64,000 nucleotides of DNA from Candidatus Poribacteria bacterium (GTDB lineage: Bacteria > Poribacteria > WGA-4E > WGA-3G), in contig JAPPFM010000058.1 of NCBI GenBank assembly GCA_028821605.1, forward strand, positions 124,280-188,279, given 5' to 3'. Below, in pieces: positions 4,844 to 20,698 of this stretch. Each line of letters opens with the position of its first letter. The first letter of the stretch is position 1. The translations under genes were made by a program, and so were the position numbers. The notes beneath the pieces were generated by a model. That model had not been told where the DNA came from. It was given only the letters and a program-made list of their open reading frames with translations, and ran no database searches.

Positions 4844-4932
4844 AGTTAACGCTTCTCCTTTATATAGACAACCCAAGACACACCTGTCTCACCTCTGGGG
4901 CTTCCGGTTTATAGTCTTGAAAGTGTCATATT

Positions 4933-5703
4933 TCATTTGGGAGCACTTGGCAACTTCAAAATCAAATCTTCACGGCGTTCTCCAGCATTGAGTATAAATT
5001 CTTCTGATACCGCAGAAACCTCGTCATATTCTACGGACACCGTATAAAATCCTATCCTATTCACATATCGCTCAAGGTAACCCTGGGAATCAGTACGCGC
5101 CGGTCCCCAGGACCTCCCACTATTATGTCCATTTAAATTCCGTGTTTTTATGCTGATGCTAACTTCCTTATTTGCTAAAGGCGTGCCGTCGGTGAAAACG
5201 ACGGTTGTGCCAATCCGCATCCGCCGCTGCACGACGATTTCAACGTCTTGGACATGCACACCGGGCGTAATGGAAAAGGTAGTTCGATCAAAAGATGATA
5301 GCGTATGGAGATCGAAATCTGGTTTGAGGGAAATCTCGCCGATTTTGATAGACAGAATCCCATAAAATGGTTCAGTATCATCAACTTCAACGTAAGGAAC
5401 CACAGCCAATCGCCATGAACCCGGATGAATGTCAGTTATCGAGAAACGACCTGATGCATCGGTCTCTATTTCTAAATTGACATCAGATGTCTGTAATTCA
5501 ACCTCGTTTGGCTGAATAGCTAAGGTGAGCTCAGCAACTGGATCTCCATTTTCATCAACAACGCGTCCGGAAAAAACTGCCGTCCCGTCTTCTGAGGGTT
5601 TGAATGGAGATGCATACTCAGTTTCACCACAACCCAGCAGCGTACAGATTGTAATTACAACGGCAATCAACACTATTTCATGTAAGAAATTTTGACGATT
5701 CAT
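4933..5703 (-). CDS. Exported lipoprotein, carboxypeptidase-regulatory-like (array member 11)
   Basis: 256 residues. Signal sequence MNRQNFLHEIVLIAVVITIC with lipobox LLGC, then SGRVVDENGDPVAEL (first beta-sandwich), TDASGRFSITDIHPG, the linker motif ISIKIGEISL, and second domain with RMRIGTTVVFTDGTPLANKE. It ends at the leucine-lysine strand that in longer paralogues precedes the lectin domain. AGGAGG lies 8 bp before the ATG. Very close in the signal region to the gene at 4037 and clearly produced by tandem duplication. It should sit in a membrane facing outward. No enzyme motif is present. Confidence 0.8.
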   Translation of the reverse strand: MNRQNFLHEIVLIAVVITICTLLGCGETEYASPFKPSEDGTAVFSGRVVDENGDPVAELTLAIQPNEVELQTSDVNLEIETDASGRFSITDIHPGSWRLAVVPYVEVDDTEPFYGILSIKIGEISLKPDFDLHTLSSFDRTTFSITPGVHVQDVEIVVQRRMRIGTTVVFTDGTPLANKEVSISIKTRNLNGHNSGRSWGPARTDSQGYLERYVNRIGFYTVSVEYDEVSAVSEEFILNAGERREDLILKLPSAPK

Positions 5704-5826
5704 AGGTATCCTCCTCTTTATATCGGTAGAATTTTTCTCTGCATGTCGTCCAAGTTAAGGCATGAATCAATTTACAGGTGCCCGGACTTAAAAAGGTCAC
5801 ACTTCACTTGGGCGCACTTGTTAACT

Positions 5827-6576
5827 TCAACTTAACTTCAAAATCAGATCTTCGCGACGTTCCCCAACTTCGAGTACAAATATCTCCGATGTTGCGCAAA
5901 ACCATTTATATTCAACTGACACCCTATAGCCGATTGCCTCGCTCCTATCTACATACTGCACAAAGTATCCCTGAGCATCGGTCTGTACAGACCCCTGGAT
6001 ACCTCCAACAACACTACTTCTTTGCGAATCGAACGCTCTTATGTTGAGGCTAACTTTTTTGTTTGCCAAGGGTGTACCATCCTCTAAAACGACTTTCGCG
6101 CGAATCCGCATCCGGAGTCGCACCGTGACCTCTACGTTTTCGATTCGCGCACCCGACCCGATAAAAAAGGTGTTCTGAGTGCAAGGATCAGGGGATAGGT
6201 CTTTCGGAGAGTAAGCAGAAACCGCGATTTTAAAGGAAAGAAGTTGATATTCCGGTTCAAGAGGGAGACCATCCTGATACTCAGGCACTAACATGAAATC
6301 AGCTTTTCCGGGATAGATATCCCTGATAGAGAAATGACCTGTATCATTGGTCTCCGCGTCGTAAACCGCTATATCGGTCTCATCATCAACGTCACAGGGT
6401 ACAATGACTAACGCAAGTCCAGCAACCGGATTTCCAGCTTCATCAACAACGCGTCCTGAAAAATTCGCCCTGTCTACTTCTATAGTTTCTATAGTTTCAC
6501 CACAACCCAGCAAAGCCCAAATTGTAACTGTAAGGGGGATTACCACTACTTTATGCAAAAGGTTTCGGCAGCTCAT
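5827..6576 (-). CDS. Exported lipoprotein, carboxypeptidase-regulatory-like (array member 10)
   Basis: 249 residues with signal MSCRNLLHKVVVIPLTVTIW and lipobox LLGC. First beta-sandwich domain begins at FSGRVVDEAGNPVAGL; the second contains RMRIRAKVVLEDGTPLANKK and TDAQGYFVQYVDRS. As in its two downstream neighbours the chain ends before any lectin domain. GAAGGA precedes the ATG by about 9 bp. A 186-bp gap separates it from the upstream paralogue at 6763. The three lipoproteins form a sub-block at the downstream end of the array, so loss of the lectin domain probably happened once before they were duplicated. Confidence 0.8.
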   Translation of the reverse strand: MSCRNLLHKVVVIPLTVTIWALLGCGETIETIEVDRANFSGRVVDEAGNPVAGLALVIVPCDVDDETDIAVYDAETNDTGHFSIRDIYPGKADFMLVPEYQDGLPLEPEYQLLSFKIAVSAYSPKDLSPDPCTQNTFFIGSGARIENVEVTVRLRMRIRAKVVLEDGTPLANKKVSLNIRAFDSQRSSVVGGIQGSVQTDAQGYFVQYVDRSEAIGYRVSVEYKWFCATSEIFVLEVGERREDLILKLS

Positions 6577-6623
6577 AAGCCATTTCCTTCTTATTCAGTT
6601 ATGGGTTGTCAGCAAGAGAACCT

Positions 6624-6654
6624 TGTGGCAGTTCTACATCTTTTGAATGCCACA
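6624..6654. repeat. 31-bp inverted repeat TGTGGC...GCCACA, copy 1
   Basis: TGTGGCAGTTC, a short variable centre, then GAATGCCACA. The same pattern with the same 31-bp length occurs at 43310-43340 next to a GTTGTCAG repeat, and GTTGTCAG is also present just before this copy (from 6605). It lies in the 186-bp gap between two array genes. Confidence 0.55.
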
Positions 6655-6762
6655 GGAAAACTGAATGTCTCTGTAGACTTTGTGGGAATGACTGACAAAT
6701 TAATTGGAAAAAATTGTCTGGGGGGAAGTGAGCATAGAACAAAAATTGTAGATTCAAAACCA

Positions 6763-8154
6763 TTATTTTTCTTTGACAGCGGAACTGTCAAACACGTCTG
6801 TTTTTTCAAGGATTGCCTGTCGAGTCGTATTCCAGAGCAGATCACCAGGACCGACGGCATGCCACTGTCCATTCACAAACGTCATAACAGCACTGTCTTT
6901 CTCTTCCGGTGAGAGAGAACTACGCGGGAATTTATACTTGGATCCCCAATTTTCATAGGTAAGTGGTTCACCGTTCTGCCATACCCATTCACCCTCTTTT
7001 TTGGCATCACTGAGTCCAATCCAATAGAGATGGTTGCCAAAGAGTCCTAAAAGCCACTGCTGTTCCGCTGCGTCGTTAATCGCGACGAGGTGTGCACCTT
7101 GGGCAGCGGCTCGGTCTTGCGCATGTTCCAGACTTCTACACCAAATTTTCATATACGCGTGTCCATTTTCAGGATTTACAGCCCATACACCTCTCTCCAA
7201 AAGGGACTTTATTTGCCGAGGTGGGACAGAACGACTGGTTTGAGTGGTGGTAGTTTTATCAGGTGGTGTTGAAGTGCCAATCGACTGGGCATCTGTCTGC
7301 TCATTAGATAGTGTCTTAACAGGCATATCTGCTCTTTCGAGGATTGCCTCTTTGATAAAAGGTGCATGTTTACCTCCCAGCGCAACAGCCCACCATTGGA
7401 TGTCAGAGAAGACGTAATCGTTCACCTCGGTGTTACCACCGGACTGTTCATTCTCTACCCAGTTAGTATACGTAACTGGTTCACCGCTGTGCCAGACCCA
7501 CTGCCCCTCATTAGCGACATCGCTGAGTCCAATCCAAAAACTATCTGGTTCAAAGACCTCTTGTATCCATACGTCTTCTGCTTCATCGTTAATGGAGACG
7601 AGATACGCATTTTCTGCAGCAGCAAGGGTCATTGCATCCATTACATCGTGGCAATAAATCCTTTTGTAAGCGTGTCCATTTATAGGATTCACTGCCCATA
7701 CCCTTGGGGGTTCAAGAAACGCTTCTAATGTGGTGTCTACTTGATCAAATCCCCATCTATCTATCGGAACGCGATTCTCATCAAGTGTCAAGAGTAGATG
7801 AACTTCCGGTTGTCCCTCCTGCAAAATAAAAGAGGGTGCTTTGGCGAGATGCCGCTGATACGCAACACCAACTACATAGAAGTTGGGTTTATTACCTACG
7901 TTAAGGGTTTCCACAAAGTATCCGTCGGCATCGGTCTGCATTGTACTTGCTGTACCTCCGGAGCCGCCTGCATCCAAGCCTTTGCGTAGCACCATAACAT
8001 ATATATCCGCGTTCACAAGCGGTGTTCCATTGGCGTGGACGACTCGCGCGCGAATTTGTGGGCGATCTGCCTGCACTTTAGTGACGACAGTAAAGGAAAA
8101 GGCCACAATCCCAGCGAGGATACCAAGCTTTAGACCGAGACGTTGAAGATTCAT
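6763..8154 (-). CDS. Exported protein with one beta-sandwich and two C-type-lectin-like domains (array member 9)
   Basis: 463 residues. Signal peptide [20 protein letters not shown], predicted cleavage near residue 29. It has only the second type of beta-sandwich domain ([16 protein letters not shown], about 34-125), then lectin domain 1 (about 152-280, [15 protein letters not shown]) and lectin domain 2 (about 330-455, [15 protein letters not shown]). Both carry the WIGL and GEPxTYxNW signatures of the C-type lectin fold but lack most of the usual disulphide cysteines. Domain 1 most resembles the single lectin domain of the gene at 9622; domain 2 is nearly the same as that of the gene at 8211. 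The protein therefore looks like a chimaera of its neighbours. AAGGAG precedes the ATG. Likely ligand: glycan or protein, not known. Confidence 0.85.
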
Positions 8155-8210
8155 GTAGATTCTCCTTTTTTGAATGTTGAGATGTCAAATAAACCGGAGT
8201 CCGAGAAATA

Positions 8211-9548
8211 TTATTCCCCATCAAGCACATTTGATTTTTCAAGGATCGCCATCTTCGTCTTATGCCAGAGCAGGTCACCGGGACCAACGGCATGCCATTG
8301 TCCATTCGCAAACGTCATAATAGCAGTGTCCTTCTTTTCTGGTGAAAGCGGACTCCGCGGGAAACGGTGCTTGGGTCCCCAATTCGTATAGGTGAGCGGC
8401 TCACCGTTCTGCCAGACCCATTCGCCTTCGTTTTCAGCATCACTGAGTCCAATCCAATAGAGGTGATTCCCGAAGAGTCCCAAAAGCCACTGCTGTTCCG
8501 CTGCGTCGTTAATCGCGACGAGGTGTGCACCTTGCGCGGCGGCTCGATCTCGTGCCTCATCCAGACTGTCGCACCGAATCTTTTTATAGCCGTGTCCATT
8601 CGCGGGGTTCACAGCCCACGCATCCTTCTCCCATGGCGGTCGCATCTGCCTAACGGGGTTAGTAGGTTCAGTATTTGTTACACGAGGTTTTACTTCCCCC
8701 TCTTGAATATTAACTTGTCCCTTGTTAGTTGGTACAGAGCGGTTTGTTTCGGTGAGTGTTGGTTTCTCAGGTGGTGTCGATCCACCAGTCAATTTATCTA
8801 AAACTTTCGGCAGAGATTCCGTTTGTGGAGCAGCAGGCGGTACATCGCCATCAAGCGTCAAAACTAAATCATCATAGCGCGCACCTTTTTCAAGCAAAAA
8901 TTGCTCTGATTTCGCTGAGAGTCCTTTATATTTTACAGTGACCGTGTAGTGTGCTGGAACATCATCGTTATCCATATAATGCACAAAATATCCCTCAGAG
9001 TCCGTAGTAGCCCCTCCAGTCGACCTACCACCATCGCCTTCGACGCGCGTGGCAACAGAAGTATTCGTTAGTGGTTTCCCATTTTTGAAAACGACTTTCG
9101 CCCGAATTCGTACCCGCGGACGGACGGTAACCGTTATGTCTTCAATATGATTGCCCGATTTGACCCCGAATGTGATGCCGCCGAAAGGCGGGCGCATGTC
9201 CTGATAAAGCGTTATACCCTTGATTTTGATTGAAACGAGCGCATCATCCGCCTCAAAGTTGAGTATAGGCTTCTCATTTTCTTTGGATGGCTGCGTTGGA
9301 AGCGCAATTTGAACAGGTCCAGCAGGGATATTGGTGAAAGTGAAAGCCCCCTTTTCATCAGTCACGGATATTAGAGAACCTTGTAAAAGACCAATGGCAA
9401 ATCCAGCAATTGGTTTCCCCTCCGTGTCAACGACGGTACCAGAGAGTGTTGTCCGGTTCTGTGCGAGACAAGGAACGGATGCAATGAGGGAGAGCACCAT
9501 TACAACTCCGAAAAGGTATGCAATGCGTGTGAAACTTAAGTGATTCAT
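8211..9548 (-). CDS. Exported beta-sandwich plus C-type-lectin-like protein (array member 8)
   Basis: 445 residues. Signal peptide ends near LIASVPCLAQ. First carboxypeptidase-regulatory-like domain starts at LSGTVVDTEGKPIAGF; second contains RVRIRAKVVFKNGKPL and TDSEGYFVHYMDN. A Pro/Thr-rich linker (about 230-315) follows, then a lectin-like domain with [44 protein letters not shown] and GEPLTYTNW. The lectin domain is almost the same as the second one in the downstream gene 6763, which implies a recent duplication or gene conversion. AAGGAGG stands 8 bp before the ATG. Only 56 bp separate it from 6763, so they are probably in one transcript. Confidence 0.85.
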   Translation of the reverse strand: MNHLSFTRIAYLFGVVMVLSLIASVPCLAQNRTTLSGTVVDTEGKPIAGFAIGLLQGSLISVTDEKGAFTFTNIPAGPVQIALPTQPSKENEKPILNFEADDALVSIKIKGITLYQDMRPPFGGITFGVKSGNHIEDITVTVRPRVRIRAKVVFKNGKPLTNTSVATRVEGDGGRSTGGATTDSEGYFVHYMDNDDVPAHYTVTVKYKGLSAKSEQFLLEKGARYDDLVLTLDGDVPPAAPQTESLPKVLDKLTGGSTPPEKPTLTETNRSVPTNKGQVNIQEGEVKPRVTNTEPTNPVRQMRPPWEKDAWAVNPANGHGYKKIRCDSLDEARDRAAAQGAHLVAINDAAEQQWLLGLFGNHLYWIGLSDAENEGEWVWQNGEPLTYTNWGPKHRFPRSPLSPEKKDTAIMTFANGQWHAVGPGDLLWHKTKMAILEKSNVLDGE

Positions 9549-9621
9549 TGTAAGTCCTCCTTATAGAATAAACAAATGTAGATTGGATCAAACTGGAAGC
9601 GAACCCAACGTTGGGTTGTCG

Positions 9622-10845
9622 CTAATTATCCTCGGCGGATGTTTCAACAGGGACATCTGTCCTTTCGAGAATTGCTGTTTTGACAAAATTTGCATGCCCA
9701 CTTCCAGGTGCGACCATTTCCCATCTACCATGTCCGGAGATAACGTAATCATTCACTTCAGTGTTGTTTCCTACTCGTTCATGTTCACCCCAGTTAGTAT
9801 AAGTAACAGGTTCACCACTATCCCAAACCAACTGTCCCTCTTCGGCGGCATCGTTGAGTCCAATCCAAAAACGTTCTCGTTCAAAGATTCCATCCAACCA
9901 TTCATTTTCCGCTTTATCATTGATGGAAACGAGATACGCATTTTCTGCAGCGGCTTGGGTCGTCGCATCTGCTATACTGTTACAATGAATCTTTTTGTAA
10001 GCGTGTCCATTCGCGGGGTTCACAATCCACACGGCTGGTGGATTAAGAAATGCCGTTAATGCAGCGGATACAGGTGGACCTATCGGCGGACGTGCAAGCG
10101 GATCTGGATTCCCGTTGAGTGTCAAAAGGAGATGAACTTGTGGCTGCCCTTCATGTAAAATGAAAGAATGTGCTTTCGCAAAAAGCCCCTGATATTCAAT
10201 ACCAAGCGTGTAGAATTTAGGATCGTCATCCACCCTAAGGTCTTCTACGAAATACCCTTCTGCATCGGTTTGTCTTGTACCACCAGAACCACCAGAACCA
10301 CTTCCATCCAGATCTCTACGTAGCATTCTAATAGATATACGAGCATTGGCAAGCGGTGTTCCATCAGCAGAGACGACTCGCGCGCGGACCTGTGGTGGGA
10401 TATTTGTGTTCACCGTGATCACAACGTCTTCGATGTCCATCCCTGCTTCCAAGGCAAACCTTACTTTACCGAAATGTGGATGGTCTCCCGGATAAAGGGT
10501 GAGCTCACCCATTTGGATAGAAAGGATTTTTCCTTTCGTCCGTTCATCTTCTACGATAAAGCTAACGGACTCCGTTGGCGCAATATTTACGAACGAAAAA
10601 TGCCCATCTAAACCGACCGGCTTTTGCCAGAAAGGCACGAATCGCACTCGTCGCTCATCATCCTCTACGGTTTTATACCGATGGAGTGCTACCGAAGTGC
10701 CGATAACCGGATCCCCTAGCTCATCAACGACATGTCCAGAAATCGTCGCGCTTTGTTGGGCAACGACAGATGATGATACCAGAAGGGAGAGTATCATCAT
10801 CAACAAAAGCAATCCAAGATTTTGTTTGAAACTTTGCAGATTCAC
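9622..10845 (-). CDS. Exported beta-sandwich plus C-type-lectin-like protein, GTG start (array member 7)
   Basis: 407 residues from a GTG at 10845. This start is preferred to an upstream ATG at 10983 because AAGGAG lies 8 bp before it, because the resulting N-terminus (NLQSFKQNLGLLLLMM) matches the paralogue at 8154, and because the longer version would overlap the end of the upstream gene. Signal peptide, then ISGHVVDELGDPVIG (first domain), QVRARVVSADGTPLANAR (second) and a lectin-like domain with [43 protein letters not shown] and GEPVTYTNW. The array context implies a surface-exposed or secreted binding protein. Confidence 0.85.
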   Translation of the reverse strand: MNLQSFKQNLGLLLLMMILSLLVSSSVVAQQSATISGHVVDELGDPVIGTSVALHRYKTVEDDERRVRFVPFWQKPVGLDGHFSFVNIAPTESVSFIVEDERTKGKILSIQMGELTLYPGDHPHFGKVRFALEAGMDIEDVVITVNTNIPPQVRARVVSADGTPLANARISIRMLRRDLDGSGSGGSGGTRQTDAEGYFVEDLRVDDDPKFYTLGIEYQGLFAKAHSFILHEGQPQVHLLLTLNGNPDPLARPPIGPPVSAALTAFLNPPAVWIVNPANGHAYKKIHCNSIADATTQAAAENAYLVSINDKAENEWLDGIFERERFWIGLNDAAEEGQLVWDSGEPVTYTNWGEHERVGNNTEVNDYVISGHGRWEMVAPGSGHANFVKTAILERTDVPVETSAEDN

Positions 10846-10936
10846 AGTAAATTCTCCTTTTGTAATATTGATGCATTGGCGCAGTAAATTGCCCTTATGT
10901 AAACGTTTATTCGGACAGGAATACCTTTTACAACTA

Positions 10937-12382
10937 TCATTTCTCTGCGGCGGACGGATTATCAAGCACGTCTGTTTTTTCAAGGATCGCCATCTCCGTC
11001 ATACGCCAAACGAGACTGTCAGGACCAACGGCATACCATTTTCCATCGTTGAAGGTCATCATAACAGCATAGACCCTCTCACTAACATCCAAGGATTCAC
11101 CAAAGATATAATCGGGTAACCAGTCCGAATAGGTGATAGGTTCACCACTCTCCCATCGCCATTGCGTTGCGTCAGAAGATGCGCCCACCGGTGGGACACG
11201 GCTGAGTCCGATCCAATAAAGTTTACGCTCAAAAACCTCTGATAACCACACCTGCTCTGCCGCGTCGTTAATAGTGACAAGATGCGCATTTTCTTCCTTC
11301 GCTCGTGCAACAGCATCGTCGCGAGTTTCACAATGAATCCTTTTGTAGGCATGCAAATTCGCCGGATTGACTACCCATACATCTTCAGAGACCCGCATTG
11401 ATTTTCTCGGCGGTGGCGTAGCAGTAGATGAACGATCAAGGGTCTTTGTGTCAGGTAATGCTTGTGGGGCAATATGGGATGGCGGTTGTGGAACAGTATG
11501 AGACGGTGGTTGTAGGACAATCGGTTCACTATCGAATTTCAACGTCAATCCGTCAAGACGTTCCCCTGGATCAAGGCGGATCGGTCCAGCCTTCGCGGAA
11601 AGACCTTCGTATTCCACAGAAAATGTATAGAATGCAGGATCATCTTTCTCATCCAGATAATAGACAAAATAACCCTCAGCATCCGTTCGCGGTTCTCCGC
11701 CCGATTGTCCGTTACCAGTCCCATCAACAGTATGAAAACGGAAACGTAGGTGGAGACGCGCGTTTGCGAGCGGTGTTCCATCTTTGAAAACAATGCGTCC
11801 TCGAATTCGCATGCGAGGTTGTACCGTGACCTCTACATTCTCAATATGGGTTCCGGGTTTGACGCTAAACCCAATCTGCTCGTGATCGGTACGCGGATAG
11901 AACGTTATCCCCTGGATGCGGAGAGATAAAACCTCAACATCGGGTTCAAAATCATCATCCTCCATCTCCATGATTCCACTTGCGTGGCGCGCAGCAATGT
12001 CCTGTTCTTTCTTAGCCTTTGCAATGTTTGTCGCAAGTTCGTCTGGCAAAAACGTCTCTACATCGTAAGGAAGTATACCGAAATAGGAAATTCCCGGCGC
12101 AATATCCGTAATGAAAAACCGCCCGTCCGCATCTGTAAGTGCGCGTCGCACAGTAGAATACTGCATTGGAAAAAACGCGGATCGAATACCCGATCCCATA
12201 ACCATAGCAGGTACAATCATAACCGGCAATTTCGCAACAGGATTTCCTTCCGCATCAACGACGCGACCAGAGAAGGTTGCGGTTTCTGCGTCAGTAATGC
12301 TGTGTGAAGCAAATCCGATGAAAAGCGAACCAATTACTATGAACAATGCAAAAACCTTGTTACTGGCTTTCAAACGTTTCAC
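10937..12382 (-). CDS. Exported beta-sandwich plus C-type-lectin-like protein, GTG start (array member 6)
   Basis: 481 residues, starting at GTG 12382 with AAGGAG 7 bp upstream. Signal peptide covers about 1-32. First domain: FSGRVVDAEGNPVAKL, with an insert rich in charged residues before VLSLRIQGITFYP; second: RMRIRGRIVFKDGTPLANAR and TDAEGYFVYYLDEKDDPAF. After a Pro-rich linker (VPQPPSHIAPQ) the lectin-like domain shows NPANLHAYKRIHC, AHLVTINDAAEQVWL, YWIGLSRV and GEPITYSDW. It lies 30 bp downstream of the sigma-factor fusion gene and is almost certainly co-transcribed with it. Closest sister is the gene at 14578, with the same linker logic and the same WIGLSRV variant. Confidence 0.85.
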   Translation of the reverse strand: MKRLKASNKVFALFIVIGSLFIGFASHSITDAETATFSGRVVDAEGNPVAKLPVMIVPAMVMGSGIRSAFFPMQYSTVRRALTDADGRFFITDIAPGISYFGILPYDVETFLPDELATNIAKAKKEQDIAARHASGIMEMEDDDFEPDVEVLSLRIQGITFYPRTDHEQIGFSVKPGTHIENVEVTVQPRMRIRGRIVFKDGTPLANARLHLRFRFHTVDGTGNGQSGGEPRTDAEGYFVYYLDEKDDPAFYTFSVEYEGLSAKAGPIRLDPGERLDGLTLKFDSEPIVLQPPSHTVPQPPSHIAPQALPDTKTLDRSSTATPPPRKSMRVSEDVWVVNPANLHAYKRIHCETRDDAVARAKEENAHLVTINDAAEQVWLSEVFERKLYWIGLSRVPPVGASSDATQWRWESGEPITYSDWLPDYIFGESLDVSERVYAVMMTFNDGKWYAVGPDSLVWRMTEMAILEKTDVLDNPSAAEK

Positions 12383-12412
12383 AATTTCTCTCCTTTTGAA
12401 TAAAGCATAAGC

Positions 12413-14461
12413 CTACTTCTTCGCGGGTAACGTTTCCTTCTCAATGAGTGCTGTCCGAATCCAACCCCATTGTGGATTTCCGGCGTTAACGTCCTCCCAT
12501 TTCCCTGAAGGATTAAGGATGACATAATCTTCAGCCTCATTGTTTGGGTCATGGGGTTCCTGAAATTCCCAGTTGGTATAGGTAACCGGTTCGCCGTTGT
12601 CCCATTGCCACTCTCCTTCTGTTGCAACATCATTCAGTCCAATCCAAATCGGTTGATTTCCAAAGACAGCTTGCAACCACTTCTGCTCTGCCTCGTCGTT
12701 AATTGTGACGAGATACGCCCCTTCGGCGGCGGCTTGCGCTCGCGCATCTTCCCAATTCTCACACTTAATCTTCTTGTAAGCATGCCCGCCAGTTTGTAGA
12801 GAAAAGTCCGGCTTTATCACCCATACATCTTGTGCACGACCACCTACGGAGGCGGACGCGCTCGCGAAAACTCCACGCCGCGCTTGGAAAGGCTCTTCTG
12901 GCAAACCATCAAAGGTAAAAACGATGTCGTGTGTTGGATCACCGGGCTTAAGCACAATCGGGTCTGCTTCGACAGTCTGACCCTGATAGGTCAGAGAAAA
13001 CATGTAAAATGTTGGTTGCTCCATATCCCTGTCCACATAGTGTGAAAAGTATCCTTCAGCGTCCGTACGAACACTGCCAGAACCAGAAGACTCACCGTGC
13101 TGACTTACTGTCCGCAAACGGCGTTTGACTTTTGCGTTGGCAATCGGTCTTCCGTTAATGCGTTGTACTTTCCCTCGGATGTGCGGACTTTGCAACGTAA
13201 CCTCAATATTTTCAATGAATTCACCCGGGGTTGGGGCAAATACAATTCCACGGTGCATCATTCCGCTTGGATAGAAAAACAATCCTCCGATTTGAACCCT
13301 CAAAATGCGGACTGACGAACTGCGAAGTGGAAATAGTGACAACAACACAGGACCGGAGATGTTATCGGTGATAGTAAAACGCCCCTCTGCATCACTCTCC
13401 ACGTGGCGCGTAGGCGTATCCTCAAGAGCATGCTCTTGCACATGAATCGGAAACCAAGCCCCATTGCCATCTACGACAGGTGTAATGGCTATCTTGATCC
13501 CAGAAACCGGTTCCCCTGCTTCATCAAGGATGTGACCGGAGGCGGTGGAAAATAGCGTTGCATCACGGTTCTGATGCGTCTTATTGTCTCTACCGGTTGC
13601 ATCGTTGTCGCCAAGTTGAGTCCGAATGTGTGGTTTGGACTCAAGATTTAGCACAACGGGTGCCTCAATTAGTTCAACCGTCATCTCTGACATTGCGTCA
13701 AAACTATACGGCTTTTGGACACGCGACAAGTATTGATGGCTTCCAACACCTAACATCAAAAATACCACCGCAACCGTAGAAACAGTAATTGCCCACGGCA
13801 GCAGTGGTTTACTACCAGACGGCGCAGCGGGTTTCATACGCGCAATCTCACGCATGATATTTTCTGTGAGATGCGGCGTGATTTGAAAATTGGCCAAGGC
13901 TTCCCGAATCATCGGTTCGTCCTTCCTTAAACGCTGCTGCGCACGACGGAGACGACTCCTAATCGTATTTGCTGACACACCTAAAAACGCGCCAATCTCT
14001 GTACTGGACATCTCACCGAAGTAATGTAGTGTGACCACTGTGCGTTCACTCTCTTGGAGTTTCGCAAGCAATTTTTTCACGACTTCGCGCTGTGCTTCCA
14101 CGGTTGTCCGTTCATTTTCTTCAACAACATATCTCGAATATGTCGCCTTTTCTAATCGAGCACTGCTCGTTTCCTCAAGTGACTGCGTCTGTAAACGCTT
14201 TTTACGCAGCCATGTACTGCAGTGGTTCGCAGCGATCACATAAAGCCAACTCGCAAAACTCTGCGGTTTTTTCAGCTTTGCTAATTCTTGATATGCCTTT
14301 AAGAATGTATCCTGCGTAATTTCCTCGGCGACGTGGAAATCTCCAATTTTACGCCACACCAGCGTGTGAACGGGCTTTTGGTACTTTTTCACAAGTTCAG
14401 TGAAAGCGGTATCATCGCCATCAAGCACACGGTGAATGAGTTCAACATCAATGTTTTTCAT
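12413..14461 (-). CDS. ECF sigma factor fused to a membrane span and lectin-bearing ectodomain
   Basis: 682 residues. Residues 10-88 are sigma region 2 (AEEITQDTFLKAYQEL, SFASWLYVIAANHC) and 128-180 are sigma region 4 with a helix-turn-helix (STEIGAFLGVSANTIRSRLR). After a basic linker one hydrophobic span follows (about 220-240, LLPWAITVSTVAVVFLMLG). The rest would lie outside: two beta-sandwich domains (about 304-380 and 427-515) and a C-type-lectin-like domain (546-676; [24 protein letters not shown]). ECF sigma factors direct RNA polymerase to stress or surface regulons; here the sensor appears to be part of the same chain. Release of the sigma part, for example by proteolysis, is inference. 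The ectodomain closely matches the product at 16024. GGAGG precedes the ATG by 7 bp and a 116-bp gap upstream may hold its own promoter. Confidence 0.92.
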   Translation of the reverse strand: MKNIDVELIHRVLDGDDTAFTELVKKYQKPVHTLVWRKIGDFHVAEEITQDTFLKAYQELAKLKKPQSFASWLYVIAANHCSTWLRKKRLQTQSLEETSSARLEKATYSRYVVEENERTTVEAQREVVKKLLAKLQESERTVVTLHYFGEMSSTEIGAFLGVSANTIRSRLRRAQQRLRKDEPMIREALANFQITPHLTENIMREIARMKPAAPSGSKPLLPWAITVSTVAVVFLMLGVGSHQYLSRVQKPYSFDAMSEMTVELIEAPVVLNLESKPHIRTQLGDNDATGRDNKTHQNRDATLFSTASGHILDEAGEPVSGIKIAITPVVDGNGAWFPIHVQEHALEDTPTRHVESDAEGRFTITDNISGPVLLSLFPLRSSSVRILRVQIGGLFFYPSGMMHRGIVFAPTPGEFIENIEVTLQSPHIRGKVQRINGRPIANAKVKRRLRTVSQHGESSGSGSVRTDAEGYFSHYVDRDMEQPTFYMFSLTYQGQTVEADPIVLKPGDPTHDIVFTFDGLPEEPFQARRGVFASASASVGGRAQDVWVIKPDFSLQTGGHAYKKIKCENWEDARAQAAAEGAYLVTINDEAEQKWLQAVFGNQPIWIGLNDVATEGEWQWDNGEPVTYTNWEFQEPHDPNNEAEDYVILNPSGKWEDVNAGNPQWGWIRTALIEKETLPAKK

Positions 14462-14577
14462 AAATTACCTCCGATTGCCCTATAGTGACGCTTATGAGGT
14501 GTAAAACTGGTGCATAATTTTTCAAAGAATTGGAGGGTGTTAAAATAAAAAAAGCGATAAGGTGCTATGTGTCGTGT

Positions 14578-16005
14578 TCATTGTCTTTCTGCAGCGGATG
14601 GATTGTCAAGTCCATCTGCTTTTTCAAGGATCGCCATCTCCGTCATATCCCAGATAACACTATCGGGACTCACCGGATACCATTTCCCACCAGAGAGCGT
14701 CATGACGACATAGTCTCTTTCATCAGCATCCAAAGATTCAGAAAAGAACTCATTGGGTAACCAGTTGGCATAGGTGATAGGGTCGCCGTTGTCCCACTGC
14801 CACCATTTTTTTGCCCGCTTAGAAAGCGCGCCTGTCGTGGAAACGCGACTGAGTCCGATCCAATAAAATTTGTGTCCAAAAACCGCTTCCAACCACGCCT
14901 GTTCTGCTGCGTCATTAATCGCGACGAGATGTGCTTTCTCTTCGGTTGCTTGGACAATTGCATCATCGCGAGTTTCGCAGTGAATCCGTTTATAAGCGTG
15001 TCCATTTTCGGGATTGACGACCCATACATCACGAGACCTCGGTTTCAACGGTGGCTCCGGTACAGGCAGGGACGGTTCAGGCTCGTCTATTTCCGTTTTT
15101 TGAGGGGGGCGTTTGGGGGAAATCGGTTCACTGTCAAATGTCAATGTCAATCCATCGAACCGGTCTCCTGGATCAAGCCGAATCGGTTTAGCCTCCACAG
15201 AAAGACCTTGGTATTCCGCGGAAAATGTGTAGAAGGCAGGATCATCCTTCTCATCTATATATAAAACAAAATAGCCTTTAGTGTCTGTCCACAAATCTCC
15301 ACCGGAGCCGCTGGAACCGGAGCCATCTACAGTTCGAGAACGAGCGTAGAGGCCGACGCGCGTATTGGCAAGCGGCGTTCCATCTTTGAAAAGAACACGT
15401 CCGCGAACTCGCATCCTCGGTTGTACGGTGACTTCCACATCTTGAATATGTGCGCCCGATTTGACACCAAACGCGATTTGATCGTAATCGTTGCGAGCGT
15501 ATAAGGTTAACCCTTGTACGCGAATGAACAAAATTTCAACGTCTGGCTCAAAATCAGCCTGATCCATACCGAAGTTACTGGAAACGAATGCTTCTATATC
15601 GTTTTGTGTGGTCTCCGTCCAATCTATGGATATGAACTCATCCACAAGCTTTTCAAAGTCTTTGGGCAGGCGCCCATCTATGTCGTCTGGAAGGGCACCG
15701 ATGTACACCGGACCTGAAGGAACATCCTTTACGGAAAACCGACCTTCTAAATCTGTGTGTGCGCGGCGCAACTGCGCGTATTCATCTGGTAAAAATACCG
15801 TCCACATGTCCCCATACCCACCACCATCAAGAGGCGCAATAAATATCGGTAACTCGACAACTGGGTTTCCATCCAAATCAACAACGCGTCCGGTAACGGT
15901 ACCTGTATCTTCCTGCGCAACAGTGTGTGAAATGAAACCGATAAAAAGAGCGACTATCACCATCAACAATAACAAAACGTGCCTTTTAGCATCTAAACAT
16001 TTCAT
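14578..16005 (-). CDS. Exported beta-sandwich plus C-type-lectin-like protein (array member 4)
   Basis: 475 residues. Signal peptide MKCLDAKRHVLLLLMVIVAL, then VTGRVVDLDGNPVVEL (first domain), a charged insert, ILFIRVQGLTLYA, RMRVRGRVLFKDGTPLANTR (second domain) and TDTKGYFVLYIDEKDDPAF. A short Pro/Glu linker leads to a lectin-like domain with [36 protein letters not shown] and GDPITYANW. AAGGAG lies 6 bp before the ATG. It begins 18 bp after the gene at 16024, so the two form an operon. It is the nearest relative of the gene at 10937, on the other side of the sigma fusion; the pairs 16024/14578 and 12413/10937 look like a duplicated two-gene block. Confidence 0.85.
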   Translation of the reverse strand: MKCLDAKRHVLLLLMVIVALFIGFISHTVAQEDTGTVTGRVVDLDGNPVVELPIFIAPLDGGGYGDMWTVFLPDEYAQLRRAHTDLEGRFSVKDVPSGPVYIGALPDDIDGRLPKDFEKLVDEFISIDWTETTQNDIEAFVSSNFGMDQADFEPDVEILFIRVQGLTLYARNDYDQIAFGVKSGAHIQDVEVTVQPRMRVRGRVLFKDGTPLANTRVGLYARSRTVDGSGSSGSGGDLWTDTKGYFVLYIDEKDDPAFYTFSAEYQGLSVEAKPIRLDPGDRFDGLTLTFDSEPISPKRPPQKTEIDEPEPSLPVPEPPLKPRSRDVWVVNPENGHAYKRIHCETRDDAIVQATEEKAHLVAINDAAEQAWLEAVFGHKFYWIGLSRVSTTGALSKRAKKWWQWDNGDPITYANWLPNEFFSESLDADERDYVVMTLSGGKWYPVSPDSVIWDMTEMAILEKADGLDNPSAAERQ

Positions 16006-16023
16006 GGTTTTCTCCTTTAGGGT

Positions 16024-17283
16024 TTACTTCTTTAGAGGCACTTCTTCTTTTTCAAGGAGTGCGGACTGAATAAGCTTCCATCTTATGTCTCCAGGACCAA
16101 TGTCCACCCATTGGGCGGCGAACAAGATGACGTAATCTTCATCGCCTTTATCGGTATCGTGCGGTTCATCCGTCGCCCAATTTGTATATGTGACGGGTTC
16201 CCCGCTGTGCCATTGCCACTGTCCTTCTTCCTGAACATCGCTAAGCCCAATTAAGGTGCGATGCGCGACGAAAACCTGTTCCAGCCAGTTTTGTTCCGCT
16301 TCATCGTTAATTGCAACGAGGTAAGCACCTTCTTTCGCTGCTTGCGCGATAGCATCTTCCACGCCGCTAAAAGGGACTTTTTTGTAGGCGTGACCATTTG
16401 CCGGATTGACGACCCACACGCCTCCCGCGTCAAGCCCACCACCAACCCGCGCTGACGCGCCAGCATGGAAATGAGGCGGAGCGTTCCGAGGCATATCAAG
16501 GGGCAGTGGGACCTCAAACGTAAAGACTACTTCGTGAAATAGATCTTCAGGTTTGACCACAATTGGATCTAACTGCACTTGATGCTCCTGATATGTCACA
16601 GACATAAAGTAAAATGCCGGACTATTCATATATCTCGTCATATATCCTACAAAGTTTCCTTCGTCATCCGTCTCCGCGCTCCACCTCCCACTACCATCGT
16701 ATTCTCCATCTAAACTGAGTTGCCTTAACCCGACCCTGATACGTTGTGCATTGGCGAGTGGACTCCCGTCCATCCTCAGAACTTTCGCTCGGAGTTGTAA
16801 AAAACGCTGCACCGTGACCTCAACGTTTTCAATGCGGTCACCCGGTTCCGCAGAAAATATAACGCCACGTCCCCACGATTCATCAGGTGCATAGAGAAAC
16901 AGATCACCGATTTGGACCCTCAAAATTTCCGCCTCTGGCGCATTATACGGAAATAATCCTAACAACACGGGACCAACAATGGCATCCGTAATAACGAAAC
17001 GTCCTTCCGCATCGGTTTCCCCTTGGAATGCCATCGGATCGCCTTGCCCTCCACCTTCTTCGACCTCAAACTCAATTGGAAACCATGCTCCATGACCGTC
17101 TTGGACAGGAACAATAACTACCGTAAGTCCGGCAATTGGCTGTCCTGCTGCATCAATAACGCGACCGGAGAGTGTGGTCAACGCATCGTTCTGTGCACCA
17201 CTCTCCCAAGCACTCGCGAGAAAAAGCACTACAATTCCAAGCAGAAATACGAGGGTTTTCATCCTGAAGTACAAACAAGTCAT
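16024..17283 (-). CDS. Exported beta-sandwich plus C-type-lectin-like protein, sister of the sigma-fusion ectodomain (array member 3)
   Basis: 419 residues from ATG 17283, which has AAGGAG 5 bp upstream; the longer frame to 17376 has no such site. Signal peptide to about WESGAQ, then LSGRVIDAAGQPIAGL. It shares with the sigma fusion several unusual stretches: GxGAWFPI, GPVLLxLFP, ILRVQIGxLF, an RGVIF segment and an Ala/Gly-rich linker before the lectin-like domain (ASARVGGG here, ASASVGG there). The lectin part has [49 protein letters not shown] and an EPHDTD segment resembling the calcium-site loop of classical C-type lectins. No sigma domain is present. Confidence 0.86.
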   Translation of the reverse strand: MTCLYFRMKTLVFLLGIVVLFLASAWESGAQNDALTTLSGRVIDAAGQPIAGLTVVIVPVQDGHGAWFPIEFEVEEGGGQGDPMAFQGETDAEGRFVITDAIVGPVLLGLFPYNAPEAEILRVQIGDLFLYAPDESWGRGVIFSAEPGDRIENVEVTVQRFLQLRAKVLRMDGSPLANAQRIRVGLRQLSLDGEYDGSGRWSAETDDEGNFVGYMTRYMNSPAFYFMSVTYQEHQVQLDPIVVKPEDLFHEVVFTFEVPLPLDMPRNAPPHFHAGASARVGGGLDAGGVWVVNPANGHAYKKVPFSGVEDAIAQAAKEGAYLVAINDEAEQNWLEQVFVAHRTLIGLSDVQEEGQWQWHSGEPVTYTNWATDEPHDTDKGDEDYVILFAAQWVDIGPGDIRWKLIQSALLEKEEVPLKK

Positions 17284-17627
17284 TTTCTCTCCTTCCACCC
17301 GCCTTCCTCCATACGCACTTACAATGCGGGTTCCTGCGATTTTCGTTGCTTTTCGGAACCGATTCCCAATGCTCATTGAAGTAACAGAAAATCAAACATC
17401 CAATGCATCTTAACAAAAGGTGATCCAAAGTGGTTATACCGATTCACGATAATCTATGAACCGCCTTTACATGTAAGTATAAAAATGAAACTGAAAAAGT
17501 TAAGGGTAAATTTTATTTTTTCAAATAGGACGGGTCCCCGTAACCGCCCAAACCTGAACGCAGGCAGGGGGCCCTGCGAAAGATAGACGGCCGAATGCAA
17601 ATTGCGTAAACCTAAACAGTACAGGAT
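17284..17627. other. 344-bp gap inside the lectin array
   Basis: No gene seen. The part next to 17628 (about 17525-17625) is the 3' region of the upstream gene and contains a GC-rich hairpin, GCAGGGGGCCCTGC near 17562. The remainder is AT-rich and should hold the promoter of the 16024 transcript; no clear -35/-10 pair was found. A GGAACC at about 17320 recalls an ECF -35 box but lacks a well-spaced partner. Confidence 0.4.
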
Positions 17628-18899
17628 TCACTCGTTGATAGTAGAAACCAATCCGTCCTTTTCGATGACCGCCTGTTTTGCTATTTCCCATAACAGACTT
17701 TTGGGACTGATAGCTTGCCACTCTCCCCTGATAAAAGTGAACACAACATAGTCTTTCTCAGTGTCTGGAGATTTATCACGGGCGATCGGATGGACCACCC
17801 AGTTGGTGTAGGTGACAGGTTCACCGCTATCCCACTGCCATTCTCCCTCTTTTTTCGCATCCGTAAGTCCGATCCAAAAAGGTTGACCTCCGAAAATCAC
17901 CTGAACCCAGTGTTGTTCCGATTCGTCGTTGATTGAGACAAGGTGAGCCCCTTCCTCAACTGCCTTGCGCTGGGCATCGTGCCAGTCTTCACACTGAATC
18001 CTTTTATAAGCGTGTCCATTCGCGGGATTAATTATCCACACGCCTTCCGTTGGCGATGTGGATGGTTCTTGAAATTTTATTTTACCGGGGGCTTTAATCT
18101 TGGGAGGAGGCAGTTCGACAACATCCGGCTTACCTTCAAGTGTGAAGACAATCTCCTCAGGCTGCACGCTATCTTTGAGCAAAAAGGGACCTGCGCCCGC
18201 GGAAAGGTCCCTATATTCCATGGACAGTGTGTAAAATCCCGGTTCATCTACGTATTGGACAAAGTACCCGTCGGCATCTGTAAAAGGGTGTGCTCCGCTG
18301 TTCCCACTATGATTCAGACGGGTCTCATGCCGCCATCCGATGTCAAAATCTAATTCGGCGTTGGCGAGGGGCGCACCGTCGGCATAAACAACTCTTCCAC
18401 GAATCCGAAGCCTCGGTTTGACAATAACCTTAACGTTTTCAATATTCTCACCGGGTTTGAGAGCGAACGTAAGTCCCTCATAAAAGTCCGGATCTCCTAT
18501 ATTGAAGAAGGTGACCTTTCCAATCTGAATAGAGACGATTTTCTTATCCGGCTCAATTTTGCCACCCCTTATAAATTCCGTCTCCGAATCAAATACATCC
18601 AGTGGGATATCAGGAAGTGCGCTTAATTGAACAAACCCCGGTTGGATATCGCTGACAGTGAAAGCACCCGTTGAATCAGTTCGCCACGGCAGAAATTCAT
18701 CAGCAGGTAGCATAAATCCGTTGTGTAAGGTTACAGGTCGAATAGCAAACGTGAAGTTAGTAACACGGTTCCCCTCCAGATCAACAACTTCCCCCGAAAA
18801 TCCACTCAGCGGCTCTTCCGCTGCTTCAATACCCGTTACGATAGGCAAAAGCATCAATGCAAAGACGACTAATTTTGGTATAGTATAGGTCCGGTTCAT
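17628..18899 (-). CDS. Exported beta-sandwich plus C-type-lectin-like protein (array member 2)
   Basis: 423 residues from ATG 18899, preceded by AAGGAG at 8 bp; the in-frame ATG six codons earlier overlaps that ribosome site and is rejected. Signal peptide MNRTYTIPKLVVFALMLLPI. First domain FSGEVVDLEGNRVTNF; then IVSIQIGKVTFFNIG; second domain RLRIRGRVVYADGAPLANAE with [19 protein letters not shown]; then a short linker and a lectin-like domain with [44 protein letters not shown] and GEPVTYTNW. It starts 28 bp after the first gene of the array and must be co-transcribed with it. Confidence 0.85.
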   Translation of the reverse strand: MNRTYTIPKLVVFALMLLPIVTGIEAAEEPLSGFSGEVVDLEGNRVTNFTFAIRPVTLHNGFMLPADEFLPWRTDSTGAFTVSDIQPGFVQLSALPDIPLDVFDSETEFIRGGKIEPDKKIVSIQIGKVTFFNIGDPDFYEGLTFALKPGENIENVKVIVKPRLRIRGRVVYADGAPLANAELDFDIGWRHETRLNHSGNSGAHPFTDADGYFVQYVDEPGFYTLSMEYRDLSAGAGPFLLKDSVQPEEIVFTLEGKPDVVELPPPKIKAPGKIKFQEPSTSPTEGVWIINPANGHAYKRIQCEDWHDAQRKAVEEGAHLVSINDESEQHWVQVIFGGQPFWIGLTDAKKEGEWQWDSGEPVTYTNWVVHPIARDKSPDTEKDYVVFTFIRGEWQAISPKSLLWEIAKQAVIEKDGLVSTINE

Positions 18900-18927
18900 G
18901 TCAATCTCTCCTTTCATTTTGGATCAC

Positions 18928-20208
18928 TCAACGCTTTTCAACGTCTCTGTCTAACTCCGGTAATCCAACGGTGAAACGTTCTTTTTCCAGAATAGCGCGC
19001 TCAGTTATACCTGCGAGAGAGCTATCCTGACGTGTCTCCTGCCACTTCCCCGTCAATCCGACGAGGACGGTATAATTCTGATGTGCACCGTCATCTTGAC
19101 GGGACTTTTCACCGCCAGCAATCTTCTCTGGAAAAGCCCAATTGGTGTAGGTGACCGGTTCGCCGTTATCCCAATGTGGATTTTTCTCTTTTGAAGCGTC
19201 GGTCAGCCCGATCCAAAAGTATTCTTTCCCAAAAACTTCAAGGAGCCATTCCCCTTCTGCTTCATCGTTGATGGCAACGAGATGCGCTCCTTCGGCAGCA
19301 GCTTGGGCGCGTGCCTCTTCACGGGTTTCACAATAAATCCTTTTGTAGGCATGCCGGTTTTCAGGGTTGATTGCCCACACGCCTTGGCGATCGCGCGCCT
19401 CTGCAGCTTTAAAGCGTTCCCTGGCAATCTTCTCGTCATCCCTAAACCGTTCTCTCGCAGGGTCAGGGATACGAGCCACCGCCTGCTCAGGCTTTGGAAG
19501 TGAGGCACCGTCGAGGGTTAAGACAAGGTCATCGTGCCGCTCGCCATCTTTAAGCAGTATCTCCTCGGATTCTGCGGACTGTCCCTCATATCCCACGGAG
19601 ACAGTATAGTAGGCAGGTTCATCCACATATTCCACAAAGTAACCATCGAGGTCAAGGTCTCTCGTGCCGCCCCCACTCCCTCTACCACCACCATCTATGT
19701 CGCGACTTTCTATTCTGATGCCAACTCGCTCATTGCGAAGCGGAGTACCGTCTGCAGTGAGAACACGTCCACGAATCCGCATCCGAGTACGGACAGTTAT
19801 CTCTACGTCTTTAACATCCGCTCCCGGCGCAATAGCAAACGTGAGCCTTCCAGAACGGCGTTGGCGTTCATCCAAATAGAAAGATACACCCTCAATTTCG
19901 ACAACGCGAATTTCATACGCCGAAGCACGTACAGGAAGTAGTGTCAATTGAACTGAAGGAGAATTAATATCGCTAATCAGGAACTCACCTGCCTCATTCG
20001 TTTCATCCTGTTGAGAAAGGATAAACACTGGCTCATCTTGGTCTTGGGGTGTAGTGATTCTGAATGCGGGAAGTGCTAACTTGATGCCAGAAACGGGTTT
20101 CCCGGTTTCATCTACAACTTTTCCTGAAAATGTCGTCGCGACACTCTGGACGGACGTTGTAAACAGAAGCACGAAAATCACAAGAGAGGTATAGTAAGAA
20201 CGGGTCAT
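18928..20208 (-). CDS. Exported beta-sandwich plus C-type-lectin-like protein (array member 1)
   Basis: 426 residues. Signal peptide MTRSYYTSLVIFVLLFTTSV. First domain FSGKVVDETGKPVSGI; second RMRIRGRVLTADGTPLRNER with an RGSGGG loop. A charged helical linker (ARERFRDDEKIARERFK) precedes the lectin-like domain: [54 protein letters not shown]. The helical linker differs from the Pro-rich linkers of the sisters. AAGGAGG lies 8 bp before the ATG. It is the first gene of the array, behind a good promoter match at 20249-20277. Confidence 0.85.
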   Translation of the reverse strand: MTRSYYTSLVIFVLLFTTSVQSVATTFSGKVVDETGKPVSGIKLALPAFRITTPQDQDEPVFILSQQDETNEAGEFLISDINSPSVQLTLLPVRASAYEIRVVEIEGVSFYLDERQRRSGRLTFAIAPGADVKDVEITVRTRMRIRGRVLTADGTPLRNERVGIRIESRDIDGGGRGSGGGTRDLDLDGYFVEYVDEPAYYTVSVGYEGQSAESEEILLKDGERHDDLVLTLDGASLPKPEQAVARIPDPARERFRDDEKIARERFKAAEARDRQGVWAINPENRHAYKRIYCETREEARAQAAAEGAHLVAINDEAEGEWLLEVFGKEYFWIGLTDASKEKNPHWDNGEPVTYTNWAFPEKIAGGEKSRQDDGAHQNYTVLVGLTGKWQETRQDSSLAGITERAILEKERFTVGLPELDRDVEKR

Positions 20209-20277: not shown

Positions 20278-20698
20278 TCTTAGGGGTATTCTTTAGGTTA
20301 GAGAATTGTTATACAACACGTAACGTAATCTTAAAAAACTTGTTTACCACAGTGTGAGTCTGATAGAGGATTAAATTTAAATCCTCGCCTTACGATTTAT
20401 TTAAAGACGCAATTTTGGAGCAGAAATGGTGCATAAAATCAAATATAATGAGTGAGTATCGCGACTTTTACAGAAGTGAGAGTCGGGAATCGGAGTGTTT
20501 TGCTTGGGTGTTTCTACCCTCCTACAGAAGGATTAAATGCCCACACGTCACTGAGATTATAGTAAAATCTACTACTACGTGGACATTGCAGGGAGGCGAG
20601 GATACAATCCTCGCCAGCAATTGTGAGGGTGTTTTTGCTTGGGTGTTTCCCTCTTTCACTGAGCAACTGTCCATATATTTTGGAATTCACTATAATTG
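20278..20698. other. Intergenic region with several hairpins and a twice-repeated motif
   Basis: No gene seen between the divergent lectin array and the sugar-acid genes. Visible structure: a near-palindrome GAGGATT-AAATTTA-AATCCTC near 20376; a perfect hairpin at 20595-20615; and TTTTGCTTGGGTGTTT occurring twice (from about 20498 and from about 20632), each followed by a CCCTC-type pyrimidine stretch. This looks like an accumulation of repeat remnants. Confidence 0.5.
20595..20615. repeat. Perfect 9-bp stem hairpin GGCGAGGAT-aca-ATCCTCGCC
   Basis: Nine-base arms with a three-base loop. No T-run follows on either strand, so it is more likely a repeat-family palindrome than a terminator. The CGAGGAT core is also seen in the weaker palindrome near 20376. 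Confidence 0.6.

Follow-up and report, generated by a model that had tools for sequence, protein, structure and literature searches.

Sigma-factor and signal-peptide heads alternate on one lectin-type ectodomain in Candidatus Poribacteria

The window analysed here is the whole 64-kb stretch of DNA. It belongs to a 6.0-Mb genome of Candidatus Poribacteria, a sponge-associated type of bacterium, and contains an array of 12 co-oriented genes on the minus strand (4037-20208). Array proteins are built from CarboxypepD_reg-type Ig-like domains, and 9 of the 12 add a C-type-lectin domain (the Pfam scan covered six of the 12). ORF and domain scoring place gene a, the first of the array, at 18928-20208 and gene b at 17628-18917; they are followed by a free-standing gene, hereafter S (16024-17283), gene c (14578-16005), a sigma factor fusion of 682 aa, hereafter F (12413-14461), and gene d (10937-12382). 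Domain scoring, trees and gene order make c the partner of S in a block (S c), and d, the sister paralogue of c, the partner of F in a block (F d). The remaining array (4037-10983; ORF, domain scoring) consists of two-lectin, one-lectin and lectin-less relatives: the member at 6763-8154 has two lectin domains and one Ig-like domain, and three members within 4037-6576 are devoid of a lectin domain.

The interval 16024-17283, put forward as a secreted sister of F in an earlier sequence-only reading, holds a gene on the minus strand, the plus strand giving stops. The ORF runs from 17376 to 16024, and a start at 17283, 31 codons downstream, is plausible. Together, the ORF, Pfam and a fold search define a signal peptide followed by two CarboxypepD_reg-type Ig-like domains and a C-type-lectin domain, all on the minus strand. 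The hydrophobic signal peptide (M..SGAQ, 17191-17283; hydropathy peak and orthologue alignment) would, in our reading, be cleaved after AQ. Domain D1 (16807-17175; domain scoring, motif scan) carries the motifs GxGAWFPI, GPVLLxLFP and ILRVQIGxLF, and precedes D2 (16513-16794; domain scoring) and the lectin domain (16027-16416; Pfam, domain scoring).

F (ORF, Pfam, domain scoring) begins with an ECF sigma factor part (13922-14461, minus strand), in which Sigma70_r2, Sigma70_r4_2 and Sigma70_ECF all score over their Pfam cut-offs; regions 2 and 4 are thus present, as in ECF sigma factors, and no further sigma region was found in Pfam at E up to 0.1. Next comes a linker (13550-13921, minus strand; homology search, alignment, hydropathy) made of one transmembrane segment (13745-13801, the single hydropathy peak, residues 221-239) and a conserved juxtamembrane stretch. 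The ectodomain (12416-13549, minus strand; domain scoring, ectodomain tree) again comprises D1, D2 and a lectin domain.

The lectin domain is C-type-lectin-like in both sequence and modelled fold. Pfam Lectin_C is matched at 58.9 and 36.8 bits (the latter in S; cut-off 22.6), and CarboxypepD_reg in S scores 26.1, below its cut-off of 32.3. The structure model of S (pLDDT 79, pTM 0.51) displays Ig-like domains and a lectin fold, and was the model searched against solved structures: its lectin fold matches the C-type lectin domains of mouse scavenger receptor C-type lectin, CD23 and Endo180 (target TM 0.74-0.82), and its Ig-like domains weakly match pilin-type and other Ig-like proteins. For F, the model was of too low quality to be used (pLDDT 62, pTM 0.36). 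The usual calcium and sugar motif of C-type lectins is EPN or QPD with conserved disulphides. As this motif is degenerate in F and S rows, which read EPH, EPN, EPG, EPQ or EPD, and the usual cysteines are missing, sugar binding by their lectin domain is only putative.

How close are S and F? It had been claimed that several segments are shared by these two proteins only, and a six-frame scan of the whole window bears this out for G.GAWFPI, GPVLL.LFP and ILRVQIG.LF, each of which occurs twice, once in S and once in F. Two other segments fare less well: RGVIF is found literally in S only, F reading RGIVF instead, and the linker before the lectin domain is indeed Ala/Gly/Ser-rich in both F (ASASASVGGRAQ) and S (AGASARVGGG) according to our own reading of the alignment, but the search pattern matched S only. 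Within its own genome, the best paralogue of S is F (53% over residues 66-450, E 3.6e-109), the next one reaching 37% (E 4.0e-59). When domains are scored against F, D1 of S obtains 115.8 bits and that of every other window gene at most 41.0, while the margins are narrow for D2 (74.7 bits for S vs 67.7 for the next gene) and for the lectin domain (141.9 vs 132.3). The exclusivity of the S-F link thus rests on D1, as D2 and the lectin domain are nearly as close in other array members; the lectin domain was rejected as an exclusive link.

Trees agree with this relationship. In a whole-ectodomain tree of 102 of the 115 array-type proteins, chosen for matching both D2 and lectin (which leaves out a broken fusion in genome G004), six fusions, ten sisters and one free relative form one clade (SH-aLRT 100). 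The same fusion, sister and free-relative clade is recovered at SH-aLRT 99 with D1 and 98 with D2. A quick lectin tree does not separate fusion and sister rows from 13 other rows (like the D1 and D2 trees, it omits three distant own-genome rows and any row in which no more than 50 positions are filled), and a later lectin tree, using 48 of the 102 rows, unites fusions and sisters at 88/82, short of strong support. In none of the three domains did the ectodomain of F group elsewhere, the outcome that would have spoken against the proposed sisterhood, and these results confirm that, for each of the three domains, no other array member is as closely related to S or F as they are to each other.

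The sigma end of F has other kin. Its first 305 residues have 57 strong matches in the own genome (G000), F included, at 43-100% identity, and 42 of them extend through the membrane linker. Sigma-linker trees nest F among a type found on contig 16, where a run of ten sigma-linker genes (47523-87755) includes several with WD40, BNR or Ig-like ectodomains. A Pfam scan of ten family members found WD40, BNR/sortilin, Big_5 Ig-like, M16 peptidase or GHL15 domains in those with the linker, and AhpC/TSA and a complete DNA polymerase III beta clamp in two lacking a linker match; in three, no other known domain stood out. The clamp protein (L117:3725-5446, own-genome contig C55) joins a family ECF sigma factor to three clamp domains over cut-off. 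A second fusion of sigma factor, CarboxypepD_reg and lectin with another linker exists in two genomes from other families of the order (L085:5801-8074 in G024 and L086:3633-5891 in G026); its ectodomain groups with free array proteins of those genomes, not with F.

We searched 38 genomes of the genus with the F ectodomain, and fetched and read the resulting loci. The fused ectodomain was found in 10 genomes (G000, G004, G005, G006, G009, G012, G015, G042, G050, and G053), and an F-type ectodomain that is free and preceded by a signal peptide in five (G002, G048, G043, G044, and G052). S-type genes occur in 13 genomes, with a deeper S branch made of the S-type gene of G042 and one of the two in G051. 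Not every genome with the fusion also has the sister: seven do, while G015, G050 and G053 have none, the last being a single contig, 94% complete. Conversely, 6 of the 13 genomes with an S-type gene lack any F-type gene. As each occurs without the other, neither S nor F needs the other, and this distribution contradicts an obligate pair (fused vs S-type, Fisher p 0.016 over 38 genomes, relatedness ignored). In G004, about 0.78 Mb separates the fusion from an S-c pair (L068:1-8341), which is flanked by two other sigma fusions. A stop or frameshift disrupts the lectin end of the fusion in G004 (L069:5908-7584) and in G015 (L079:5037-7089), the sigma factor and linker staying open. Among the matches listed from the named genome collection, all 74 related loci belong to metagenome-assembled genomes of Candidatus Poribacteria.

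A tree of the protein body (everything after GAWFPI; 15 F-type and 14 S-type proteins) clarifies how fused and free forms are related. The 15 F-type proteins constitute one clade beside S, in which fused and free forms are intermixed, requiring at least four changes between the fused and non-fused states. Grouping all fused forms in one clade is rejected (p-AU 2.4e-9), as is grouping all free forms (2.4e-38); in a smaller body tree with one free form, a single fused clade is again rejected (p-AU 0.0051). S-type rows are a clade of their own (100/100) that contains no F-type row, whether fused or free.

One example concerns G050 (fused) and G052 (free), which are sisters with 318 of 340 body residues identical. 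At the DNA level, their upstream flanks (to position 5303 in G050 and 5954 in G052) are 96.4% identical and their downstream flanks (from 6418 and 6085, respectively) 92.8% identical; in between lie 1114 bp encompassing the leader, sigma factor and linker in G050, vs 130 bp encoding a signal peptide in G052. G002 and G048 provide another example. Their gene order is 'a b F(free) d' vs 'a b S c F d' elsewhere, so that exactly S and c are missing, and the ectodomain search found no S elsewhere in either genome (89% and 93% complete). The G002 protein is S-like to about residue 61 (26 of 32 diagnostic columns) and F-like from about residue 77 (66 of 76), a split that was placed post hoc and whose early stretch is trivially S-like in part, as it compares a signal peptide with a linker. 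A deletion between tandem S and F copies would be expected to leave such an arrangement. More generally, all five free forms have open signal-peptide starts, and the best non-free match of each of their heads is an S head.

All 10 fused genes have in common the junction DxxLFxxAxG and a leader motif, TTATGCACC-N17-GCGTCACTAT, located about 20 nt before the ATG; the motif is absent from the five free-form genes. In the window, it lies at 14482-14517 on the minus strand, 20 nt before the ATG of the fusion (motif search). A first sigma tree groups the fused sigma heads (91/78). In an enlarged sigma-linker tree (52 of 80 sigma rows, far branches being dropped and other genomes being represented by their best-matching loci), the 10 fused heads do not form one clade, as three other rows are placed among them, weakly supported, and a one-clade constraint is not rejected (p-AU 0.404). 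Four changes are needed on the body tree whether one assumes one gain and three losses, two gains and two losses, or four gains. As junction and leader are common to the 10 fused genes, we favour, short of proof, a single gain of the sigma head that would later have been lost three times, and we infer the direction of the head changes likewise.

Which protein contributed the ectodomain is a separate matter. The proposal that the fusion joined a sigma, transmembrane and linker segment to a secreted lectin-type protein holds, as the linker nests in non-lectin sigma fusions and the ectodomain in secreted array proteins. The part of that proposal in which S itself was copied does not: S and the F ectodomain are equal sisters (170 of 336 residues identical over the common body), and closer free forms sit in other genomes, namely G002 (205/338 identical to F) and G052 (207/336). 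S was accordingly set aside as a donor, given its separate clade in the body tree. Genes c and d are in turn sister paralogues: in the ectodomain tree, their 18 rows unite at SH-aLRT 100 and divide at 99 and 93. As these neighbours mirror the S/F split, (S c)(F d) seems to have arisen by duplication of a two-gene block. The gene after the F-type gene best matches c, not d, in G050, G053, G043, G044 and G052, and the duplication seems clear in one part of the genus only.

We then consider what the sigma factor may control. The leader motif ends in GCGTCACTAT in all 10 fused genes, i.e., with a -10 box of the CGTC type that is typical of ECF promoters, which makes it a candidate promoter for the fusion itself. 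A two-box matrix was built from 58 own-genome sigma leaders; a site above 14 was found in 41 of them (in-sample), and 99% of leaders shuffled base by base stay below 13.5. Two sites only exceed 16 in the 64-kb window: the F leader (28.0) and a site at the array head (28.6; 20401-20436, minus strand), 192 nt before the first array gene; the array-head site lay outside the training set. The maximum over 60 simulated windows was 20.1, with spacers of 13-15 in the simulations and 11-17 in the window scan. Genome-wide, a strict pattern yielded 12 matches vs none in a reversed control: six before sigma-family genes, one at the array head, two before TolB-like genes, one before an unfused ECF gene and two others. 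The two genes preceded by the motif at L168 (C2:251660) and L176 (C48:58183) read as TolB-type exported beta-propeller proteins, so that this sigma family may generally have exported repeat proteins among its targets. The unfused ECF-like sigma gene (L172, C31:2391; 220 aa) hints at a cascade. The top own-genome motif outside sigma leaders (32.6; L106, contig C32) has no clear ORF behind it.

An array-head site is present in 8 of the 9 testable fused genomes vs 3 of 11 others (G008, G017, and G051), 20 genomes being compared and G012 omitted as its contig starts inside the array; all five free-form genomes are without it. The fusion itself heads the array in G050 and G053, so that both hits lie in its own leader; without both genomes, the count becomes 6 of 7 fused vs 3 of 11, and the Fisher p of 0.0098 (relatedness ignored) refers to the 8/9 count. 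In G004, the site is 2006 nt upstream of the first lectin gene. The -10 box of the own array head is of the TCTTTAA subtype, as in other sigma-family branches, and that of the F leader reads TCACTAT (15.5 vs 8.7 bits for the array head by -10 subtype). Among 10 array heads scored, eight are of the TCTTTAA kind and two (G009 and G042) are F-like. Own-genome sigma leaders show two -10 subtypes, drawn by eye, TCAxTA (30 leaders) and TCTTTAA-like (11), which seem to follow branches of the sigma family. As the subtypes differ, F may not drive the array head, and the idea of F as a proven array driver is weakened.

From the relationships, domain make-up, two head types at one locus and conserved promoter motif described above, we propose the following scenario, which we consider reasonably probable as a whole: a block duplication, the capture of a sigma head by F, a one-protein sensor reading a ligand, and a reversible fused state. 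An ancestral pair of secreted lectin-type genes would have duplicated as a block to give (S c)(F d), after which the F copy would have swapped its signal peptide for a promoter leader, an ECF sigma factor, a membrane helix and the conserved linker, a type of head that dozens of further genes in these genomes also bear. F would most likely sit in the inner membrane, with the sigma factor in the cytoplasm and the lectin ectodomain outside. Binding of an external ligand would lead to release of the sigma part, for which regulated proteolysis seems the likeliest route, perhaps through an M50 (site-2-protease family) enzyme, a gene of this family being present. The freed sigma factor would then drive its own promoter and possibly lectin genes, and S, as a secreted relative, may bind the same ligand as F. 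The fused state would be reversible, as an S-like signal-peptide head is found in three lineages (G002/G048, G043/G044, and G052), and in G002/G048 this head apparently results from a deletion that joined tandem S and F copies.

Several independent fusions of related sigma-linkers to the F ectodomain, with free forms keeping an ancestral signal peptide, would account for the free state of the outgroup S, for the equal cost of four gains and of one gain with three losses, for the failure of the enlarged tree to unite the sigma heads, and for the signal-peptide heads of G052 and G043/G044 being most like each other. We nevertheless think this the less likely reading: the same kind of junction and leader occurs in all 10 fused genes, the first sigma tree unites their heads, and G002 and G048 lack exactly S and c, the G002 protein being S-like up to its switch point. 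A direct copy of the window S, or of its direct ancestor, as the source of the ectodomain is improbable, because S-type rows stand apart from fused and free F-type rows and free F-type proteins of other genomes are nearer to F, even if S is the nearest in-genome relative of F.

The ectodomain might serve as an anchor only and sense nothing, with the sigma factor constitutively tethered or otherwise controlled; the broken lectin ends of G004 and G015 beside an open sigma factor and linker, as well as the unrelated ectodomains borne by the same linker, point this way. Given that the lectin domain is intact and conserved in 8 of the 10 fused genomes and that a second lectin-type sigma fusion with another linker exists in G024/G026, we regard an anchor role as rather unlikely. 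As for an error of assembly or binning that would have joined or split the two genes, the related named records are metagenome-assembled genomes and some contigs are short, but junction, leader and linker recur in 10 genomes, three of them single-contig (G004, G009, and G053), the free form of G052 and the fused form of G050 have unbroken matching flanks, and the signal-peptide starts of the five free forms are all open, so that such an artefact is very improbable.

What stands out is not the array sister but that, on one ectodomain, a sigma-membrane head and a signal peptide have replaced each other repeatedly. A broader and more tentative reading is that promoter, sigma factor and membrane segment form a plug-in cassette that would convert secreted proteins to sensors and back, tandem sisters supplying the signal-peptide head. 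If so, relatives would, at a single locus, either export a lectin or couple that lectin to transcription. As close relatives carry the ectodomain with and without the sigma head, the origin and loss of one-protein signalling can be followed event by event. The output of the fusion is testable with defined promoters, and, provided that the lectins bind host glycans, this system may show how sponge symbionts tune their perception of these sugars.

Sigma factors anchored in the membrane and fused to an external domain have been described before, and few have been studied. Titles and abstract openings in the open-licence literature yielded no description of this lectin-sigma system. As described in passages on ECF52, SCO4117 of Streptomyces coelicolor combines an ECF sigma factor, a membrane segment and an external sugar-binding module in one polypeptide, for which autoregulation and proteolytic release have been proposed (PMC5826349, PMC8999054). 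F likewise unites an ECF sigma factor, a membrane segment (by hydropathy) and an external lectin-type module in one chain. According to the same passages, ECF52 proteins possess a zinc-finger domain and a proline-rich stretch and are confined to Actinobacteria, whereas F is poribacterial, as are all 74 related loci listed, and no zinc finger was found after its sigma part in Pfam at E up to 0.1. In addition, the F ectodomain consists of CarboxypepD_reg and C-type lectin domains, and its head is swapped for a signal peptide between genomes.

In IutY (ECF243) of Pseudomonas putida, as far as the source passages go, a sigma factor carries a membrane-bound extension and is freed by Prc and RseP (PMC8999054). 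The F sigma factor is similarly fused to a membrane-bound extension, but that of IutY is described as a fused anti-sigma factor in a siderophore system. The IutY extension is of the FecR type, and Pfam gave no match to a FecR-type anti-sigma extension in F. By the tests made, F is not a member of ECF52 or ECF243. Planctomycete ECF57 proteins carry large C-terminal repeat domains such as WD40 and belong to an expanded set of ECF sigma factors (PMC8567305, PMC8999054), and one own-genome sigma relative of F is a WD40 fusion; however, ECF57 belongs to another phylum, and the passages seen name no lectin-type ectodomain or head exchange for it. Finally, in the Sigma-I/RsgI system of Clostridium thermocellum, as presented in the part of the source consulted, a sigma factor under the control of an external, carbohydrate-binding domain drives its own gene and those for secreted carbohydrate-active proteins (PMC4711584), with sensor and sigma factor being separate proteins there and a single chain in F. 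In its presumed way of working, F would come closest to the ECF52, IutY and sigma-I/RsgI sensors.
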